Origin: a virus | Reading direction: 5' to 3' (one strand) | Length of the DNA stretch: 64,000 nt | Virus record (IMG/VR): IMGVR_UViG_3300009157_000016 | Span: 44,378-108,377 of that record | In this document: piece after piece, positions 9,172-63,796 of the stretch | How positions within the stretch are numbered: the stretch's first letter is position 1 | Layout of the letters: each line of letters opens with the position of its first letter | Translations under genes and position numbers: made by a program | The notes under the pieces: model-generated | What the model was told of the DNA's origin: nothing | Seen by the model: the letters and a program-made list of their open reading frames with translations, nothing else | Databases searched by the model: none

Positions 9172-11889
9172 TTAGATACCCTGAGAATCGAATGACTTGT
9201 AGTTCTCGCTCCAGTACTTGCCCACGGGCTCAAGCTTGTTCCACTTCTTGCCAATGGACACTTCCACGCTCATAGGCACGTTGATGAAATCATACGGGAG
9301 CAGAAGCAGTTCGCGTGCCAAGTAGCTGATCTCATCTGCCAGTATGCTGTCCTTGTCAGGCATCATGAACGTCAGGTCGTCATGGATTTGCATGATGGGA
9401 TGACGGTAGCGGATCTTATGCTTGAGAGAGCTGCGGCTGATCCTCACCATGCCGTCGTTCACAATGTCAGCCGCCAAGGACTGGATGGGGCTGTTGTACA
9501 GTTCGTGTCGGCTCATGGGATAGTAGCGGCGGCGGCCGGTGAACGTTTCCACGTAACCCACGTCGTAGTAGGTCCGCATGGTCTCGTCCTGCCACTCCTT
9601 GAGGCCGGAGAACGTTTCCCAAAACTCCTCAAAGATGTCCTGCGCCACGTTGTCAGGCATGGCCTCGCCAAGGAAGGGTAGGAAGTAGCTGGCAACCGAC
9701 GGCTCAGCCGCACCAAAGATAACAGGGAACACCATCTTGTTCTTGACCAGTGAGCGCGCACCCTTCAATGCGTCCTCGTCATTCTTCCCCTGCTTCTCCT
9801 TAAAGTAGTCGAACAGCCACGGCCAGCGCTTGCCAATTTTGAGCGCCCATTCCTTGTGAACGTCGTATTCCTTCCACGTAGCACCGACCATGTTCTTGTC
9901 ATTGCAGAACATGCAGGCGGTACACCACTCCAACTGCCCAAAGTCCACGCTAACGAAGACGTGGCCTTCCAGCGCTTCAACTTGCTCCCTGATCCAAGCG
10001 TCCTTGTGCTTGGGCCAGTTCTGCATGTTGGGGTCGTCCGAACTGAGTCGGGCGGTGGTGGTGAAGGTCGTGTTGAAGGAAGTGTGGAGCTTGCCGTCGG
10101 GAAAGATGAGCGTGCCGTCAGGCAGGATCATCTGGTCGACGTACGTGCTCTTCATCTTCACTTTGTTGCGCAGCTTGATAATCAGCGGCGCAAGCGGATG
10201 GTCTATCTTCTCAAGGACGGCTTTGTCAACCTTCTCAGTGACTTTATCTGAGTCCTTTTTGTCCTTGACGAAGACCTCAGGCCGCTTTAGGTAGTCACGG
10301 AATATGGTAAGGACCTGCGGCTGCGACTCAGGATTGAATTCCCCTTTATGCTCACTGACATACTTCTTGACCACTTTGAGGCCAAGGATGTCATTTACGA
10401 TACCCTTGACTTCGTCTTCCAGCTTGCCTTGCAGGCGCTTGGCGGTCTTCTGGTTGATGGGGACGCCGTAGTGCTGCATGAGAGCCACCGCGCCCTGACG
10501 CGGCATGGCCATCTCATAGACATGCTCCTGCCTGATGTCCCTGATAAGCTTGTCCTGATGGAACCAGAGTTGCAGCGTGGCGCGCGTGTCAGCGCCATTG
10601 TAGATGAGGACCTGATCGTAGGGGCTTTTGCGCAGGTCCTTCTTGTCCAGCTTGAACTGGCTCTTGATGTCTATGCCGAAGTGCTGGCGTGTGAGGAAGC
10701 CTAGCTTTTGGTATTGCGAAGCGTGATCGTCCTGACCCTTCTCGTTTGGCCCTTTGCGGCCGTCAAGGATGTAGGCTTGGACCATTGTGTCTTCCCACGA
10801 GTTGTGGTGAACAATGTCTTCGCCAAAGTAGAAGATGTACCACTCCATCTCAAATGGAGAGTTGTGCGCAATCTTGGGGATGTCACGGCGGCGTATCAAC
10901 GCCTCAAGCCGGTCAAGGATCTTCTGCCGCTGCGCTTTGGACCAGTTGGCCTTGGGATGGTCGACTCCGAACGAAAACGTTCTTAGTTTTAGGTGCCTGT
11001 CATAGTAGGAAAAGGCGGCCGTCAGAATGATAGCGCCGGTGCGGTAGGGTCTGAGAGGCCACGTCTCAAGGTCGGTGGCGTAGCAGGCAACTCCTCTCTC
11101 AATGTCGTCGAACTCCCGCATCAGGGAGTCAAAGTCATCCTCGGGGCGCTCACCGCTGTAGGTGTTGACGTCCTTCTTGACAGTCTGCTGAGTCCATACT
11201 TCCGGCCACGGCGGATCGTCGTCCATGAACCGCCATATCTGCTCAAAGTCCAGCTTCCACGCGCCACCTACTCGGCCGTTCAGCGGGCGTCTGTCATCCT
11301 TGGCCGACCGCAGGACGTAGGCAGGGTGATTGGTGGGGAAGAACCAGCACTCATGCTTTCCAATGGTGACCGCAAAGAAGCGGCCCCGCATACCTTGCAT
11401 GTCTTTCGTGCCAAGCATCCACTGCAAGGCTGGGATGCCAAGGCCCACGATCAGCTTGGGGGCAGCTTCCTCAATGGCGGCGGTGACGTAGCCGCGACAG
11501 CACTCCTGCTCAATCCACTCCGGCGGCCGTATCTTACCCTCAGCGTTTTTGGGGAAGTGCCTGACTGTGTTCCCGTAACCGCAGTTGTCATAGTATTCGT
11601 TGGGGATCATGGACTTGAGAAGCTTGCCTGACTTCCCAATGAACGGTACGCCCTCCTGTTCCTCCTGCGGACCCGGTGCCTCACCTAGGAAGAAAATGTC
11701 GCATCTGCGTGGTACGTCTTCACGGACCTCATTGCCGGCACGTGAGAGGGGGCAAGCGCGACAGCCTAGGCGTTGCAGCGTTTCCGAGCTTTGCTTCGTT
11801 TGCTGGCCTACCGAAGACCGGCGGGGGCCGGTTTTGTCGGCGCCCTTTTTCGCGTTCGCCTTATCTGCTTTCTGGTAGAAGAAGCCCAT
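9172..11889 (-). CDS. Uracil-DNA glycosylase (family 4-like) fused to family A DNA polymerase
   Basis: Replicative polymerase, 905 residues. The N-terminal third resembles family 4 UDG: CRACPLS cysteines, GEAPGPQEEQEGVPFIG near 68, paired cysteines, NHPAY near 186. A 3'-5' exonuclease domain follows (DLET near 271, a HNSPFEMEW block, YNGADTRATL). Polymerase motifs are A VDFGQLE near 645, B RSLVKNKMVFPVIFG near 710, and C IHDDL near 833. The start at 11889 overlaps the previous stop (TGATG). The fusion would couple uracil recognition to synthesis; whether the glycosylase site is active cannot be told by eye. Confidence 0.92.
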   Translation of the reverse strand: MGFFYQKADKANAKKGADKTGPRRSSVGQQTKQSSETLQRLGCRACPLSRAGNEVREDVPRRCDIFFLGEAPGPQEEQEGVPFIGKSGKLLKSMIPNEYYDNCGYGNTVRHFPKNAEGKIRPPEWIEQECCRGYVTAAIEEAAPKLIVGLGIPALQWMLGTKDMQGMRGRFFAVTIGKHECWFFPTNHPAYVLRSAKDDRRPLNGRVGGAWKLDFEQIWRFMDDDPPWPEVWTQQTVKKDVNTYSGERPEDDFDSLMREFDDIERGVACYATDLETWPLRPYRTGAIILTAAFSYYDRHLKLRTFSFGVDHPKANWSKAQRQKILDRLEALIRRRDIPKIAHNSPFEMEWYIFYFGEDIVHHNSWEDTMVQAYILDGRKGPNEKGQDDHASQYQKLGFLTRQHFGIDIKSQFKLDKKDLRKSPYDQVLIYNGADTRATLQLWFHQDKLIRDIRQEHVYEMAMPRQGAVALMQHYGVPINQKTAKRLQGKLEDEVKGIVNDILGLKVVKKYVSEHKGEFNPESQPQVLTIFRDYLKRPEVFVKDKKDSDKVTEKVDKAVLEKIDHPLAPLIIKLRNKVKMKSTYVDQMILPDGTLIFPDGKLHTSFNTTFTTTARLSSDDPNMQNWPKHKDAWIREQVEALEGHVFVSVDFGQLEWCTACMFCNDKNMVGATWKEYDVHKEWALKIGKRWPWLFDYFKEKQGKNDEDALKGARSLVKNKMVFPVIFGAAEPSVASYFLPFLGEAMPDNVAQDIFEEFWETFSGLKEWQDETMRTYYDVGYVETFTGRRRYYPMSRHELYNSPIQSLAADIVNDGMVRISRSSLKHKIRYRHPIMQIHDDLTFMMPDKDSILADEISYLARELLLLPYDFINVPMSVEVSIGKKWNKLEPVGKYWSENYKSFDSQGI

Positions 11890-12044
11890 CACTTTTCCGC
11901 TTTGAGTTGGTCGAGTCGCTTGCGGCATGTGGCAAGCAAGTCACGGTTCGCGAAGTCACCGTGACGCTTGAGTTCTGCCTCCTGCACCGCCAGCATGACG
12001 TCGACGATTTCGATCAGGGCGTTAACCTTCTGCACATCCGGCAT
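11889..12044 (-). CDS. Small helical hypothetical protein
   Basis: A 51-residue helical, charged protein (ALIEIVDVMLAVQEAELKRH core). It has a GGAG ribosome site and its TGA overlaps the polymerase ATG. It lies between the sliding clamp and the polymerase genes, so it may be a small replisome accessory, by context only. Confidence 0.65.
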   Translation of the reverse strand: MPDVQKVNALIEIVDVMLAVQEAELKRHGDFANRDLLATCRKRLDQLKAEK

Positions 12045-44044: not shown

Positions 44045-44461
44045 CTACTCCTTTTGTCTACCAGACAGGACGGCGACCAGATGGATCAGGGCCTTCTGGC
44101 ACGGCCTTGAGCAGGCGTTGAAGTCTGCCACAAGCCTTCCCACGACGGTCGCCGTGTTCAGCATGTCGTCGACCTCAGCGCTAGGTGCCGTCCCTCTATA
44201 CTGCGGAGGCACCAAGTCGTTGATGGACACTTCCAGCGCATGGGCCATCGTAACCATGCGGGAGAAGCTGAGCCGGTTGGTTCCCTTCTCATACTTCTGG
44301 ATCTGCTGGAAGGTGATGCCGCACTTGTCGCCGAGCTGTTCTTGGCTGAGCTCGCGCATCTTGCGCAGTTGCCGAATGCGGCTGCCCATCACGATGTCCT
44401 CCTGGCGAGGCTCTTTGACGGACGTCGTTCCCTCAATGGCACGTTCCTTTGACTTGACCAT
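44045..44461 (-). CDS. XRE-family transcriptional regulator
   Basis: 138 residues with a helix-turn-helix of the XRE/Cro type: IRQLRKMRELSQEQLGDKCG, ITFQQIQKYEKGTNRLSFSR, then a dimerisation-like rear. The ITFQQIQKYEKG wording is typical of alphaproteobacterial regulators. It is divergent from the plus-strand RNase H and terminase block, so it may control one or both directions. Not, on its own, evidence for lysogeny. Confidence 0.8.
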   Translation of the reverse strand: MVKSKERAIEGTTSVKEPRQEDIVMGSRIRQLRKMRELSQEQLGDKCGITFQQIQKYEKGTNRLSFSRMVTMAHALEVSINDLVPPQYRGTAPSAEVDDMLNTATVVGRLVADFNACSRPCQKALIHLVAVLSGRQKE

Positions 44462-44477
44462 GTTCTCACTCCTACAC

Positions 44478-58449: not shown

Positions 58450-58615
58450 TGTCTCTGTCCTCTGTCATAAACTTTGGAAGTGGCTTCATTTCAGGAAGAT
58501 CGTAGCCGTCCTCAAGCGCCTTGATGGCGACATTAGTAGCCGCCAAGCGCTTTACCAAGTCCTGCTTTTTCACGCGAAGGATGGCTAGGATCTCTTCAAT
58601 TTCACCATTGATCAA
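58337..58615 (-). CDS. Small helical protein with out-of-frame tail
   Basis: 92 residues from a TTG start, with AGGAGG eight bases upstream. The front is a helix (EIEEILAILRVKKQDLVKRL). The last third reads through the next gene out of frame. Unknown. Confidence 0.5.
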   Translation of the reverse strand: MINGEIEEILAILRVKKQDLVKRLAATNVAIKALEDGYDLPEMKPLPKFMTEDRDNGNDDGNKLPRAGGLGGLRESVEEGQGVDANAPERGA

Positions 58616-58683
58616 TGTTCGTTCCTCCTGTCTGTGTTCTTGTGTAACACACTGCTACCGCCCGAAGGCGGTAGTGTCTGCTC
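58616..58683 (-). promoter_or_regulatory. Operon hairpin element 1
   Basis: Inner stem CTACCGCC/GGCGGTAG (58655-58674); its tetraloop reads UUCG in minus-strand RNA. The outer pairing is weaker and bulged. It ends in the ACAGACAGGAGG leader before the TTG at 58615. First of five similar elements. Confidence 0.5.
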
Positions 58684-59290
58684 ACAAGTCGAATTGCTGC
58701 AACCGTTTGACGAACTGACGCTGCACCTTCTTGAAGGTCTTCGGGTCATCTGAATAGTGCGGCAGCTTCTGTTGAGTCCACCACGAATACGTCCACTGGC
58801 TGGTTTTCTCGTCGTACTTGTCCTCCATGTCCACCCAAATGGGGTGTTCCTTGGGAATGCCGAAGGGCTTAAGGTAGGCCCGCATGTTGCCGCATCTAGC
58901 GTTGTCCAGCGCTTCAATGCGGCTGCGGATCTTTTTGACTTCCTCGCCGTTGTGAATGTCGTCAGGCCCCAACTCCTCGTCGAAGTTCATCTTGAGGGTC
59001 ATGGCCATGACCGCGCCGCCTTCGCAGACGTAGCAGACCTTCCTCGGCTCTTTCCTCGGCTCTTCATTGTCCTCGCCGGTCTCGTATTCATGGCGGATCG
59101 TGTGCCACGTGCTCATGTCGATCTTGTAGATCTTCGAGCGCTCAACCTTCTTGATGTCCTCAAGGGCAATCAGGATGAGCTCGCTCGGCTTCGCGGCAAG
59201 GATCTTGTCGCCGCCGGTCTTGTCGAAGTTGGCTGGTGGACTGGGCTTCTTGCTGGGCTGACCTGTAGGTTCCGTTCCCATATCACTCAT
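58682..59290 (-). CDS. Hypothetical protein
   Basis: 202 residues. Start at 59290 fits the GGAGAGAGAACATG leader shared in this operon. Front Pro/Lys-rich; a middle with a single CYVCEGG pair; rear alpha/beta. No domain recognised. Confidence 0.65.
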   Translation of the reverse strand: MSDMGTEPTGQPSKKPSPPANFDKTGGDKILAAKPSELILIALEDIKKVERSKIYKIDMSTWHTIRHEYETGEDNEEPRKEPRKVCYVCEGGAVMAMTLKMNFDEELGPDDIHNGEEVKKIRSRIEALDNARCGNMRAYLKPFGIPKEHPIWVDMEDKYDEKTSQWTYSWWTQQKLPHYSDDPKTFKKVQRQFVKRLQQFDL

Positions 59291-59361
59291 GTTCTCTCTC
59301 CTGCTTGTGCTTCTGAGCACATAGCTCCAGCGCAGTTGCCCGCGCTGGAGACTCTGCTCAG
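59291..59361 (-). promoter_or_regulatory. Operon hairpin element 2
   Basis: Outer stem CTGAGCA/TGCTCAG (59313-59361) and inner CTCCAGCGC/GCGCTGGAG (59325-59350), then the leader AAGCAGGAGAGAGAACATG. Confidence 0.6.
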
Positions 59362-59585
59362 TCCCGGTGTAGAAACTTCCAAAGCAGCTCGGCCGTTTTG
59401 TCACCGATCTTCGCTTCCCATATAGTTTGCAGATCGTAACGATACTTCGCCCGCAGCACTTGTGGCAGATGCCAATAGAGTGCCTTGGCGGCATGGGTAG
59501 CAACTCCTTTGCTGTACCCATGCTTTCGAGCGAAGGGCTGGATGACTCCTTGCCAATCGCTCAAGCTAAGCATGTCGTCTGCCAT
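59358..59585 (-). CDS. Small hypothetical protein
   Basis: 75 residues; its ATG overlaps the VWA gene's TGA (TGATG). Alpha-helical, basic (SKGVATHAAKALYWHLPQVL). Unknown. Confidence 0.6.
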   Translation of the reverse strand: MADDMLSLSDWQGVIQPFARKHGYSKGVATHAAKALYWHLPQVLRAKYRYDLQTIWEAKIGDKTAELLWKFLHRD

Positions 59586-60877
59586 CAGGTGTAGTCCACG
59601 AAGACCGTGTCCCCGAACGGTGCCTTGGAAGCCAGCCCCGCATAGCGGCGCTTGTCTCCATGCACCGCCCAAAGGACAGGGCAGCCGGGGTCCAGCCCAA
59701 AGTCCAGCGTGAGAAGGTCAGTAAAGAATATGACGCCTGCTACGTCGTCAACGTTCTGTTCCAACCATTCCCACACCGCCTTGAAGTGGGTCCCGCCGCC
59801 GCCCTTGGGATTCAGTTTCAGTTCGTCGTAGGCTTCGAAGATGTCAACGCCCTGAAACTTCGTGTCGGTGTAGATCACGTAGACCTCGTCCGCCACGCCT
59901 TCATCCACCATCGCCTTAATCTCGGTGGCCAGCTCGCTCCACAAGCGCGGAGTCATGCTGCCCGAGGTGTCGCCGATGACAGCGAGACGGTGCGGCCGGT
60001 CACTGACCTTCCCCGGCAAGTAGATCTTGCGGGGCAGGTAACGCTTGTCCGGTCGTGACCATGATGTATCCTTGCGCATTGAGTTCTGCGCCCAGATGCG
60101 TGTCACGTCCCGCCAGTCAATGCGCGGCTCAGTCAACGTTTTGTAGATGCGTTCCAGCTCGCCGGGAACGGAGCCCGCATTCGCCGCCTTGGCAACTGCC
60201 ATAGCGGCGCGCACGTTCTTGTCCCACTCGTCGGAAGCCTCCTTGTTGCCGTTGACGTCGGTGTGATCCGTCGCGTCAAGAACTTCGCCGGCCCCACCGG
60301 GGTCGTGTTCCTGCTGCGGCGTGCGTCCACCCTGACCTTGACCGCCTTCGCCGTCGCCGTCAGATTCGCCTTCGCCGTCATCACCCTTTTCGTCAGGCTT
60401 TCCGCCACCGCCGCCCTTCTTCGGGGCGGTCTCGTCACCACCCTGTTCGGGCGGCTTCGGCTTGGATTGCTCGTCTTGTTCGTCGAGCATTTCGTAGACC
60501 TGCTCGGCGCTCATGCCAAGATACTTGGCGTCAGTCACCGAGCCCGGTGGAAGCTCGAAGCCGGCTGAGAGCACGTCGTGATTGATGACGTACGCGCAGG
60601 CCAAGCTCCAGCGGCGTGGATCACGCCACTTGCGACGCATGGGATGCTTGTAGACGCAGCCCGTGACGGCCTGCGCCCATGAGCCCATGCGTTGTCCTTC
60701 CGTCAGGCCGAGGATGTAATCGGCGTTGTAGAAGTATGATTTGCCCTCGAAAGCCGTGGAAGCCGCCGCTGGCGACTCCTTCGGCTCCAAGTTGAGGGCA
60801 AGGCAGGAATAGAAGCGCTGCCGATATATCATCTGCGTGCGCGCCTTTATCACTGCCTTTGCAGCTTCTTGGTTCAT
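59585..60877 (-). CDS. VWA-domain protein (DUF2201-like), partner of a MoxR-type ATPase
   Basis: 430 residues. N-terminal helical/peptidase-like half, an acidic Gly/Asp/Glu-rich linker, then a von Willebrand A domain: IGDTSGSMTP gives the DxSxS MIDAS, later FFTDLLTLDF. MoxR-VWA pairs act as chaperone or protein-remodelling machines. The partner AAA ATPase is at 61707-62723 in the same operon. Start at 60877 follows the shared leader. Confidence 0.8.
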   Translation of the reverse strand: MNQEAAKAVIKARTQMIYRQRFYSCLALNLEPKESPAAASTAFEGKSYFYNADYILGLTEGQRMGSWAQAVTGCVYKHPMRRKWRDPRRWSLACAYVINHDVLSAGFELPPGSVTDAKYLGMSAEQVYEMLDEQDEQSKPKPPEQGGDETAPKKGGGGGKPDEKGDDGEGESDGDGEGGQGQGGRTPQQEHDPGGAGEVLDATDHTDVNGNKEASDEWDKNVRAAMAVAKAANAGSVPGELERIYKTLTEPRIDWRDVTRIWAQNSMRKDTSWSRPDKRYLPRKIYLPGKVSDRPHRLAVIGDTSGSMTPRLWSELATEIKAMVDEGVADEVYVIYTDTKFQGVDIFEAYDELKLNPKGGGGTHFKAVWEWLEQNVDDVAGVIFFTDLLTLDFGLDPGCPVLWAVHGDKRRYAGLASKAPFGDTVFVDYT

Positions 60878-60958
60878 GTTCTCTCTCCTGCTGTGTGAAA
60901 TGCTCCTAAGCACTTCGCCATACGGCGGCTCTCACCGCCGTATGTCACTGTGCTCAGT
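60878..60958 (-). promoter_or_regulatory. Operon hairpin element 3
   Basis: Outer stem CTGAGCAC/GTGCTTAG (60906-60957 on the plus strand, one G-U pair) around an inner 10-bp CATACGGCGG/CCGCCGTATG, then the leader ACAGCAGGAGAGAGAACATG. Confidence 0.6.
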
Positions 60959-61223
60959 TCTTGGTTACGCTTTCGGCTCCCGCCATTGCTTGCGTTTCCA
61001 GTTCGCTGACCTCCCGCTTGAGCTCTACGTTCTCAAGCGAAAGTTCGTTGTTGATCTCTTCCATCAGCCGTAAGGCTTCCAACATGCGCTGCTCAAGCTG
61101 CGTGATGATCGTTGGATCAGTCGCCGTCTTGTGCAGTGCTCCCATGATGGTTGCTTGGAAGTGGATCATCTTGTGCAGCACCTTGCGGTCGAGGTGGGCG
61201 GCTCTGCGCTCTCGCGCGTTCAT
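60954..61223 (-). CDS. Coiled-coil hypothetical protein
   Basis: 89 residues: basic front, then a long charged helix (MEEINNELSLENVELKREVS). Overlaps the next gene by four bases. Lies between the MoxR- and VWA-type genes; perhaps an adaptor. Inference. Confidence 0.65.
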   Translation of the reverse strand: MNARERRAAHLDRKVLHKMIHFQATIMGALHKTATDPTIITQLEQRMLEALRLMEEINNELSLENVELKREVSELETQAMAGAESVTKN

Positions 61224-61426
61224 CCGATCGGCCTCACTGCCACGACGTATTGGTTGCCCTTTGCATCCTGCATGAGGCGCGAAACCTCATGCGGTTTGAC
61301 GCACATGACATCCAATGGCTCGAGTCCCGGCAGCGCCTTGATCGCATCCTGCAAGATGACGGCCATGACTGCCGCCTTCTGCGCGTCCGTGCGTTGGCGT
61401 TCGAACACGCCTCTGATTACTGACAT
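61220..61426 (-). CDS. Small hypothetical protein
   Basis: 68 residues, alpha/beta (AVILQDAIKALPGLEPLDVM, then YVVAVRPIG). In the MoxR-VWA operon. Unknown. Confidence 0.6.
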   Translation of the reverse strand: MSVIRGVFERQRTDAQKAAVMAVILQDAIKALPGLEPLDVMCVKPHEVSRLMQDAKGNQYVVAVRPIG

Positions 61427-61435
61427 TGCAACCTC

Positions 61436-61696
61436 CTAGGCTGTCGCTTCTGCGAAGCGCGCCTGATAGTGTTGGAACAAATCCATCAGTTCCACCTGCT
61501 TACCGGCGAGCTCATATGTCTCGCCGGTAGCACTGTTGGTGAGCTCGATGCAGAACTCGTAGTATCCTTCCGGGTTCATGGTTTGCGGCCCTGTGCCGTG
61601 AACCCACCGAAAGAACACCGGTTGCCCGGCTCCGAACTCTCTGCGGGCGACTGTCTTTTTCAGCCGCCCGCCCGGTGACTTCTTTCTCAGTTCCAT
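61436..61696 (-). CDS. Small hypothetical protein
   Basis: 86 residues. Basic front (LRKKSPGGRLKKTV), then beta-like middle (PVFFRWVHGTG), helical rear. Unknown. In the MoxR-VWA operon. Confidence 0.6.
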   Translation of the reverse strand: MELRKKSPGGRLKKTVARREFGAGQPVFFRWVHGTGPQTMNPEGYYEFCIELTNSATGETYELAGKQVELMDLFQHYQARFAEATA

Positions 61697-61706
61697 TCAT
61701 GCTCCT

Positions 61707-62723
61707 TCACAGTTCGAACGACTGGTTGGCCTGCTTGAACGAGATGTAGGTCGGCGTGTCGCAGAGGGTGTTGTCCCTGCGGCAAGCGTCCATCACGGTC
61801 ACCGTTTCCAGTTCCTTGCCCAACCTGTCCGCATAGGTCATGATGGGCTTGAAATTCTGGCGGGTGGCGTGACGTGCGATGGCTCCTGCCACCGCATAGC
61901 GCCCCGCCGCCGTGTCAGGCACTTTCGCGCCCTTCGGGTCGGTGGTGATGTCCTTCAAGGAAGGGAGGTCGCTGAACGCCTCAATGAAGGTGCTCAGTTC
62001 GTTCTTGGGGCCTTCGCCCACAAGCCCTTCGATGTTCCGGTCACGCCGCCGCACGTCCTTGATCTGAACGTACTTGGCGCACTCCTCCCACGCACGGGGC
62101 GTGGGGAAGGCTTTCAGGTCGGTGCCCTCCATCGAGTGGATGAGCTTCGGCCTGAACCGGATGAACGCAGGCATGATGGCCGGGATGTGGTCCTGATCGT
62201 AGGCCCACTGGATCCACGTGTCAGGATCCGCTTCAATCTCAAGGTGAGCGAAGCGGTTTGCCAACGCCGTCGGCATTTTCTGCGCGGCGGCGCGGTCACT
62301 CTGCCTGTTGCCGGCTGCCGCGATGCGCCAGCCCGGCGGCAGGATGTAGTCGCCAACCCTGCGGTTGCCGAACGCATCCTTGAGCACGAGGCCGAAGCAC
62401 GCGACCTGCGTGGCGAGTTGCGCGGCGTTCAGTTCATCAAGGAACAGAACACCCTGCTTCCCATCACGCTTCTCGTTGGGCAGCTCGTCGGGCGGCAACC
62501 ATTTGGTCACTCCCTTTTTGCTGTCCAAGTCCGGCAGGCCCCTGAGGTCCACCGACTCCCGCAACGCTGCGCGGAAGTCGATGAATCCCCAGCCCTTGCG
62601 GCGGGCCTTGATCCGGTCTGCGAGGCCTTTGGACTTGCCCACGCCCGGCGGTCCCCAAAAGAAAAACGGGGTGTCGCCGTCAATGTAGTCGTCCGCACTG
62701 TCTAAAGCTTCTGCTAGGTTCAT
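61707..62723 (-). CDS. MoxR-type AAA+ ATPase
   Basis: 338 residues. Walker A GPPGVGKSKGL, a RESVDLRGLPDLD loop typical of MoxR, Walker B GVLFLDELNAA, then AAAGNRQSDRAA (sensor 1 / insert) and LANRFAHLEIEADPD. Works with the VWA-domain protein at 59585-60877. In bacteria such pairs mature metalloenzymes or remodel complexes; in a phage the target is unknown. Start 62723 follows the shared leader. Confidence 0.88.
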   Translation of the reverse strand: MNLAEALDSADDYIDGDTPFFFWGPPGVGKSKGLADRIKARRKGWGFIDFRAALRESVDLRGLPDLDSKKGVTKWLPPDELPNEKRDGKQGVLFLDELNAAQLATQVACFGLVLKDAFGNRRVGDYILPPGWRIAAAGNRQSDRAAAQKMPTALANRFAHLEIEADPDTWIQWAYDQDHIPAIMPAFIRFRPKLIHSMEGTDLKAFPTPRAWEECAKYVQIKDVRRRDRNIEGLVGEGPKNELSTFIEAFSDLPSLKDITTDPKGAKVPDTAAGRYAVAGAIARHATRQNFKPIMTYADRLGKELETVTVMDACRRDNTLCDTPTYISFKQANQSFEL

Positions 62724-62812
62724 TGTTCTCACTCCTGCTGTGTTGACGCTCAACGTGAACGTCGTCATCTCCACGGTTGCCCGTGGAGATGGGGTCGCTC
62801 ACTCTTTGCCGT
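62724..62812 (-). promoter_or_regulatory. Operon hairpin element 4
   Basis: Outer stem GTGAGCG/CGTTCAC (62755-62802, one G-U pair) and inner ATCTCCACGG/CCGTGGAGAT; the loop reads GCAA in minus-strand RNA (a GNRA tetraloop). The leader is ACAGCAGGAGTGAGAACAATG. Confidence 0.6.
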
Positions 62813-63004
62813 TCAGAGCGGTGATTGGGTTATGATGACGGCTTGTTCCTCATGTCCCGTGACTTCGTTCTTCAGGGTGCCTTGTGGAATAATGAAGGGT
62901 GCTTTGGTCCCAACACATTCCCAACGGTTACCCTGAATACCGACGTAGACGTTGATGTCGGGATCATAGGTTTGGAGGACGCTGATCAGTTCACCAACTG
63001 TCAT
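62813..63004 (-). CDS. Small hypothetical protein
   Basis: 63 residues, opening MTVGELISVLQTYDPDINVY, a phrase frequent in small uncharacterised proteins of phages and bacteria. Alpha/beta, no known role. Confidence 0.7.
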   Translation of the reverse strand: MTVGELISVLQTYDPDINVYVGIQGNRWECVGTKAPFIIPQGTLKNEVTGHEEQAVIITQSPL

Positions 63005-63007
63005 CGC

Positions 63008-63358
63008 TCAGGTATCCGCAGTCTGCTTGTCGAACTCTGCCTTGGCTGCCGGCGTCAAGGTGCCAACGCGCACATGGGAGTCACCCCGGCCGTAGTTGAG
63101 ACGCTTGCCGGTGTCCACGAGCACGCCTTCCTTGACGAGGCACTCAAAGGAGCCTTCGTACTGGTTGGCGTTCGCAATGAACACTTCTTCGGGCAGCGGC
63201 CGGTAGCCGTAGTCGAAGAGGCACACCGTTGGCTTGGACAGCGGCTCAGGAAACTCAACGCCGACGAGCTGGATAGCTATGCTCTGGTCGGCGAAGTATC
63301 TGCTGAACTGCACCTCGGCCTTTTCGTCGATGTATTTGTTCTTGAAATGGATCTGCAT
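63008..63358 (-). CDS. Hypothetical protein
   Basis: 116 residues, start at 63358 following the shared leader. Beta-rich middle (SIAIQLVGVEFPEPL), final alpha/beta part. Last gene before the switch to the plus strand. Function unknown. Confidence 0.65.
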   Translation of the reverse strand: MQIHFKNKYIDEKAEVQFSRYFADQSIAIQLVGVEFPEPLSKPTVCLFDYGYRPLPEEVFIANANQYEGSFECLVKEGVLVDTGKRLNYGRGDSHVRVGTLTPAAKAEFDKQTADT

Positions 63359-63360
63359 GT

Positions 63361-63430
63361 TCCTCTCCTGCTGTGGAGCCCCATGATAGGACACCGGTAA
63401 CGTCCGCTGGACGTTACCGCTGGCCTACTG
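63361..63430 (-). promoter_or_regulatory. Operon hairpin element 5
   Basis: Inner 11-bp stem CGGTAACGTCC/GGACGTTACCG; outer pairing weaker (TAGG/CCTA). The leader ACAGCAGGAGAGGAACATG is kept. Confidence 0.55.
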
Positions 63431-63461
63431 TAGCCTTCGCTGCCTTTCAGAGGAGAACGTG

Positions 63462-63755
63462 ATGGCATCGTCAATGCATCGGATCTTGGTAGGTTCTGAC
63501 GCCTACGTGAATGTCTCAAACGGGAACCTGAACTGCACCGTTTGGATGCCGCATAGCTGCCAGCTCCGCCTTGCCATTGCCGGCTCAGAGCCGCCCGTGG
63601 ACTACCCTGATTTCATTCCGCACAAGCAAGGTCCCAACAACGGGAAGTTCTCGGCGCGCAACCTTGAGGCCGAAGATGACTTGTGGGCTCGTGCTGAGTC
63701 CAAGGATGTCGAGTTGCAGGTCATGCGAGGCACGACCGTCATCGAGTTCAACTAG
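63462..63755 (+). CDS. Small hypothetical protein
   Basis: 97 residues; start preceded by AGGAG. Beta-like front (DAYVNVSNGNLNCTVW), mixed rear. Only plus-strand gene in the right end. Function unknown. Confidence 0.6.
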   Translation: MASSMHRILVGSDAYVNVSNGNLNCTVWMPHSCQLRLAIAGSEPPVDYPDFIPHKQGPNNGKFSARNLEAEDDLWARAESKDVELQVMRGTTVIEFN

Positions 63756-63758
63756 AAC

Positions 63759-63796
63759 GTTCCCTAGGCACGATTCGAAACCGTGCCTAGGGAAAC
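63759..63796. terminator. Strong terminator hairpin between convergent genes
   Basis: 12-bp stem TTCCCTAGGCAC/GTGCCTAGGGAA with loop GATTCGAAACC. It sits between the plus-strand gene and the convergent partial gene and could serve both strands. The loop also occurs in the hairpin at 57808-57833. Confidence 0.75.

Follow-up and report, generated by a model that had tools for sequence, protein, structure and literature searches.

The window, a DNA stretch of 64,000 nucleotides, forms the final 64 kb of an IMG/VR phage record of 108,377 bases (IMGVR_UViG_3300009157_000016, labelled L008) from an uncultured phage. On its minus strand lies an operon encoding a MoxR-type AAA+ ATPase (61707..62723; phrog_1297 ATPase, E 9e-76; no Pfam match at E 0.001) and a VWA-like DUF2201/putative metallopeptidase (59585..60877; PF13203, E 9e-31; PF09967, E 2e-16; phrog_1314). 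Gaps of this MoxR-VWA operon carry a repeated element that is very probably a two-state RNA, in which one strand can pair with either of two partners. The five minus-strand copies between 63430 and 58613 described in an initial annotation are all present, each with a folding z score of -5.23 to -6.81 and none of 200 shuffles equal, but the count was too low: a mechanical hairpin scan and a leader search revealed further copies at the opposite end of the record, where there are six (contig ~306-2981 of L008, outside the window). Circularity of the record, which would unite both sets of copies in one operon, could not be demonstrated, the frame being open for only ~19 codons over the junction. 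The whole record was also scanned with a covariance model, a check that had been proposed at the outset. This model (R2), built from nine copies of the phage, recovers its training copies and two untrained ones, at contig 2888-2981 (E 9e-6) and at window 63352-63430 (E 0.0012), giving 11 in total. Folding of all 11 is far more stable than that of shuffled sequence (z -5.0 to -6.9; 0 of 200 shuffles equal for each copy). The main gaps of the operon had been said to carry the element; this holds for five copies, but short or overlapping junctions, such as 61721-61696 and 61435-61426, lack it.

In each copy the strands follow in a fixed order: A, which overlaps the preceding gene's stop codon or lies at it, an inner GC hairpin, B, C, a leader with a Shine-Dalgarno (SD) sequence, and the start codon. 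The predicted anatomy is nearly constant among the 11 copies, with an outer stem of 5-8 bp, a small internal loop, 2 bp, a mismatch and an inner stem of 8-12 bp. Nearly all predicted folds contain a closed helix of ~20-24 bp interrupted by a 2x2 internal loop and a 1x1 mismatch. The outer stem, the inner stem that differs in sequence from copy to copy, the UUCG and GCAA loops and the G-U pairs in outer stems, all described initially, are borne out by the sequence. The 'double stem' plan, although both stems are real, is incomplete in that it overlooked a third strand: the bases between B and the leader (strand C) also complement B, and A:B and B:C exclude each other because both use strand B.

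The copy upstream of the VWA/DUF2201 gene (T3, 60875..60957, minus strand; z -6.81; 79.4 bits with R2, training set) has as its A strand CTGAGCAC (60957-60950), with the stop codon TGA inside, followed by the inner hairpin (60944-60919), B, which is GTGCTTAG (60913-60906), and the leader CACAGCAGGAGAGAGAACATG. Its competing hairpin joins GAAGTGCT (60916-60909) to AGCATTTC (60904-60897) and cannot coexist with the GTGCTTAG:CTGAGCAC pairing. Upstream of the MoxR ATPase gene (T2, 62721..62815, minus strand; z -6.72; 64.2 bits, training set), A (GTGAGCG, 62802-62796) lies 11 nt behind the upstream stop codon (62815-62813) and B (CGTTCAC, 62761-62755) follows the GCAA-looped inner hairpin (62792-62765); GACGTT in the region of B is the partner of C (AGCGTC, 62750-62745), and the leader is CACAGCAGGAGTGAGAACAATG. 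Copy T4 (59288..59361, minus strand; z -5.64; 53.5 bits, training set) again has the stop TGA within A (CTGAGCA, 59361-59355), an inner hairpin at 59350-59325, B at 59319-59313 (TGCTCAG), a competing hairpin of TGTGCT (59321-59316) with AGCACA (59311-59306), and the leader AGCAGGAGAGAGAACATG. In copy T5 (58613..58688, minus strand; z -5.71; 43.0 bits, training set), A (CTTGTG, 58688-58683) shares bases with the stop TGA (58684-58682), the inner hairpin (58674-58655) bears the UUCG loop, the outer partner is CACAAG (58644-58639), TGTGTT (58651-58646) competes by pairing with AACACA (58638-58633), and the leader terminates at a TTG start. The exception is copy T1 (63352..63430, minus strand; z -5.23; R2 E 0.0012, untrained), which sits in a divergent leader ahead of the block's first gene, lacks an upstream stop codon and has a weak C strand; its inner hairpin (63419-63395) has 11 bp and a 3-nt loop, its outer stem is GUAGG:CCUAU, and its start ATG is at 63358-63356. 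The leader, initially called near-identical, is indeed purine-rich with an SD core in each copy but exact in only two, the others deviating (CACAGCAGGAGAGGAACATG, CACAGCAGGAGTGAGAACAATG, CAGACAGGAGGAACGAACATTG); with small changes, a leader of the CACAGCAGGAGNGAGAAC type precedes most of the 11 starts. A lone leader copy, TGTAGGAGTGAGAACATG, is found outside the operon at window 44459-44476 (minus strand), without a credible element (R2 E 0.6).

Relatives were found by a MoxR alignment search of phage contigs, and all of them are uncultured. About 15 related phages (among L007, L016-L020 and L094-L110) bear the same plan in their MoxR-VWA operon, with a MoxR identity to this phage of 39-50% for the pairs measured. 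A covariance model made from the relatives (R1) matches at least 52 copies in them, with 8-11 matches per better-covered record (both strands counted), and in whole-record searches of the relatives its strong matches fall only in the MoxR-VWA region. By one mechanical definition, the full plan is found in 3 of 7 operon gaps of this phage and 24 of 68 operon gaps of the relatives (35-43%), and in none of 26 non-operon gaps of the relatives and ~0% of shuffles.

The two competing helices are supported by several kinds of covariation. Within this phage (nine copies), 84% of cells are paired and 12 of 15 pairs are altered on both sides, a result reached by 0 of 500 shuffles. In an alignment of 28 copies from the relatives (A3), A:B and the inner stem are paired in 92.3% of cells as opposed to 73.9% in shuffles, with 15 of 18 pairs altered on both sides (0 of 500 shuffles) and 75 cells altered on both sides versus 19.5 in shuffles; pairing drops sharply if the partner is slid by 1-3 columns. 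The initial claim of selected RNA structure is upheld by this covariation of inner and outer stems, and the support in relatives on which that claim had been staked is present. B:C is paired in 80.9% of cells in the relatives, with a covariation score of 0.231 versus 0.100 in shuffles (0 of 500), and several apparent failures are one-base register shifts, as in GTGTTGC-ACTC-GCAACAC. When strands are swapped between copies of the same genome (48 copies), the pairing of A:B, the inner stem and B:C is weakened in 500 of 500 permutations; for this phage alone (8 copies), permutations equal or better number 1, 0 and 0 of 500, respectively. This swap test measures partner specificity rather than frequency, the 51-copy core set having been partly hand-filtered for membership, and the mechanical gap count given above is the unfiltered test of frequency. 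The inner stems of the aligned relatives contain 22 G-U cells versus 1 A-C cell, which points to sense-strand RNA. In the relatives (43 copies), the two helices have similar energies (mean free energy, dG, -9.7 kcal/mol for A:B and -10.1 for B:C), and in this phage (8 copies) A:B is favoured (-13.0 and -8.6 kcal/mol). Masking of A, as a terminating ribosome would do, yields B:C in the predictions.

The element is placed with respect to the genes on both sides. Measured from the base at which A begins, the upstream stop codon lies between -11 and +7 nt in 45 of the 52 R1 matches in the relatives; in 5, the criterion used found no upstream stop. In 26 the stop sits exactly at the first base of A, and thus UGA itself is paired to UCA in B. 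The distance to the following start codon is 73-115 nt (median 98).

These features suggest that every copy acts in cis as an RNA switch between cistrons of a polycistronic phage mRNA, by which processing or stability would be gated by translation (rough probability 0.42). In the closed state B would pair with A to form one long, slightly interrupted duplex of ~20-24 bp, and in the open state B would pair with C to form a separate small hairpin ~20-50 nt ahead of the next start. A ribosome finishing the upstream gene would cover A, pushing translated mRNA to B:C, and untranslated mRNA would close into the long A:B duplex, whose most likely output would be an RNase III-type processing site at the gene boundary. 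With A masked, or once cleavage has occurred immediately ahead of B, B:C might shield the downstream message as a hairpin at its 5' end. In this way the element would set stability and expression gene by gene in the operon through processing and upstream translation. It is possible, if doubtful, that the copies represent a new class of termination-sensing switch placed at most long junctions, with the stop codon itself as one of three strands; every ribosome that finishes a gene would then decide anew what becomes of the mRNA that follows.

Several points weigh against the translation-gated switch. While the sequences, the covariation, the exclusivity of A:B and B:C and the overlap with the stop codon are established at the level of sequence, the output of the switch is unproven, its transcript, cleavage and translation aspects resting on sequence and prediction. 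In this phage alone, support for B:C from the covariation score is modest (3 of 500 shuffles), and in the aligned relatives A:B and B:C lack the excess of G-U over A-C seen in the inner stem, partly because some rows are misregistered. In two distant MoxR-operon phages (L112 and L113) the outer stem and a later hairpin occur without overlap, so the exclusivity is not universal. The copies of this phage escape model R1 (best score 11 bits), and therefore the case for their common descent with the relatives' copies is built on the plan, the operon and short motifs, namely TGAGCA in A and GTGCYCA in B, as in L097 and L098; kinship of the sets is an inference rather than a proof. Finally, the predicted accessibility of the SD sequence hardly depends on the state (unpaired 0.75 vs 0.82 in this phage and 0.43 vs 0.47 in the relatives), and thus simple masking of the SD sequence, which these predictions do not support, is probably not the output. 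Sequestration of the SD sequence by A or C was considered and set aside, as there was no consistent difference between states; in one relative, L103, pairing of A with the SD sequence is possible, but its leaders do not covary with A, and this reading was not adopted.

The translation-gated switch is closely rivalled by processing alone and by coupling alone. If the copies acted constitutively, as RNase III-type sites of processing that also stabilise mRNA, junctions would be cut to give single-gene messages independently of translation, and the overlap with the stop codon would be mere compactness. The closed helix of ~20-24 bp with its 2x2 loop and 1x1 mismatch is comparable to R1.1 of phage T7, B:C would be a ready-made 5' hairpin once the RNA is cut before B, and the insensitivity of SD accessibility to the state agrees with such a role; this account is nonetheless rather unlikely, since taken alone it leaves the position of A a few bases from the stop (45 of 52 matches) unexplained, and in at least one alphaproteobacterium RNase III favours longer duplexes. 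Translational coupling, in which the folded gap hands the terminating ribosome or its 30S subunit on to the start that follows, or initiation there is gated by the fold, would explain why A begins at the stop codon, why the stop-start spacing is almost fixed and why the leader is conserved at the SD sequence, and alternative hairpins gated by ribosomes are an established principle (PMC12548453). It is unlikely all the same: the efficiency of coupling usually declines with distance and structure right after a stop codon has been reported to lower it (PMC12548453), whereas the gaps here are 70-115 nt long, and the predicted SD pairing is the same in both states.

Two other explanations carry far less weight. 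Repeats acting at the DNA level, as binding sites of a phage regulator such as were proposed for ESAS of Cluster K mycobacteriophages, combined with an extended SD motif (SAS), would account for the fixed leader CACAGCAGGAGNGAGAAC just before starts, the inverted repeats upstream and the restriction to non-structural genes, a layout like that of SAS/ESAS. They are very improbable and already disfavoured by the arms, which have no fixed sequence and differ between copies with pairing kept, and by the G-U pairs in inner stems; for ESAS the authors report the opposite, departures that do not support pairing (PMC3203893). Transcription terminators or attenuators between genes are scarcely credible: the stems are GC-rich and stand in gaps behind stop codons, but neither in this phage nor in the model set does any copy have a U-run directly after the inner stem, for which reason an intrinsic terminator was rejected, and the stems are succeeded by B, C and a start codon with a strong SD sequence.

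Other structures accompany the operon in related phages. At L103 7153-14245, near-identical elements of a CGTTTCG/CGAAGCG subtype alternate in a dense run with a CACTG/CAGTG subtype, which suggests two switch families in one phage. In L016-L020 and L094-L110 a third hairpin with a variable stem and the loop CUUGCA or CUAGCA is often located between C and the SD sequence; loop-loop contact among such hairpins is conceivable, UUGCAA being self-complementary. A different, start-associated mini-hairpin is present in gaps before SD sequences of L005, L006, L014, L015, L112 and L113 (e.g. L113:5336-5377), with a short variable stem and a constant CAAUNRUG core (GCCAATCGTGGC, GATCAATTGTGATC, CGCAATCATGCG), and it is possibly a protein-binding RNA hairpin.

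Searches in other collections were largely negative. The 6-kb region as a DNA query had no match among phage records, the VWA protein as a query found no relative, and two matches of the leader pattern in viral contigs were both inside genes and judged to be chance. The MoxR alignment search of a bacterial genome collection returned distant cellular homologues only (best ~38-41% identity), with the full plan in 1 of 178 gaps there. Among cultured phages and plasmids MoxR was no closer than ~31-36%, no DNA matched the element consensus and no cultured carrier was found. In Rfam release 15 (4227 models), the window has no gathering-level match and five loci of relatives have only chance-level ones at E <= 1. 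No description of the element was found in the open-licence papers that were searched.

Elsewhere in the record, ~2 kb near the contig start (L008:3700-6050, outside the window) has scant obvious coding sequence, five spaced TCGAAAA...TCTAGCAA repeats and CTTCTTTCTTC repeats, and is possibly an origin or promoter region just ahead of element-bearing genes. One protein at window 9172-11928 (minus strand) combines a family A DNA polymerase with an N-terminal domain of the uracil-DNA glycosylase superfamily. A perfect 13-bp hairpin (TTCCCTAGGCACG...CGTGCCTAGGGAA, loop GTTTCGAAT) is located at window 63760-63794, in the gap behind a plus-strand gene (63459-63755).

Intercistronic structures of phages are usually treated as single sites, as with the RNase III sites of T7 and lambda cIII; here there are 11 copies in one phage and dozens in ~15 relatives. 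Compensatory evolution in two competing helices amounts to a natural mutagenesis that predicts which bases matter, and makes it testable with short reporters how one polycistronic phage mRNA gives unequal amounts of protein.

The nearest described arrangement is that of SAS/ESAS in Cluster K mycobacteriophages, with similar motifs in Microbacterium phages (PMC7302621), as in cluster EF; inverted repeats of clusters EG and O also belong here. Both systems have an over-conserved SD leader at some starts, an inverted repeat upstream, many copies and an association with non-structural genes. As in SAS, a highly conserved asymmetric sequence is found here where the SD lies, a few nt ahead of the start codon, although the Cluster K SAS consensus GGGATAGGAGCCC itself does not occur. 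ESAS, on the other hand, are 17-bp inverted repeats with a shared consensus, the departures in whose arms do not support RNA pairing, and DNA binding was proposed for them (PMC3203893); in the present element the arms vary freely but covary, and B is contested by a third strand, C. The element offers a counterpart, based on pairing, to the SAS/ESAS repeats, which are unexplained.

The initial annotation had pointed to RNase III sites and stabilising hairpins, a possible parallel. No competing third strand is known in T7 R1.1. None is described in the report on this 60-nt RNA with a 4/5-nt internal loop (PMC6121014). T7 R1.1 resembles the element as an irregular intercistronic two-stem hairpin with a small internal loop and about two helical turns, and the predicted closed folds have the size of an R1.1-type RNase III substrate, i.e. 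about two helical turns of double-stranded RNA with an internal loop allowed; cleavage has been shown for T7, whereas the present element is known from its sequence and predicted folds. The lambda cIII mRNA adopts mutually exclusive alternative structures. Its conformation controls expression, with involvement of RNase III (PMC2777011), but at a single site on one ribosome-binding site, whereas the present element is repeated between cistrons and does not mask the SD sequence. In ribosome-gated attenuation and RNA-unfolding coupling (f1 VII-IX, MS2 coat-lysis and rpmI-rplT), the position of a ribosome can decide which alternative hairpin forms (PMC12548453); those systems hide or free the next ribosome site, whereas here the SD sequence is similarly accessible in both predicted states. 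T7 R1.1, lambda cIII and the ribosome-gated hairpins are parallels in mechanism, not families that include the element.

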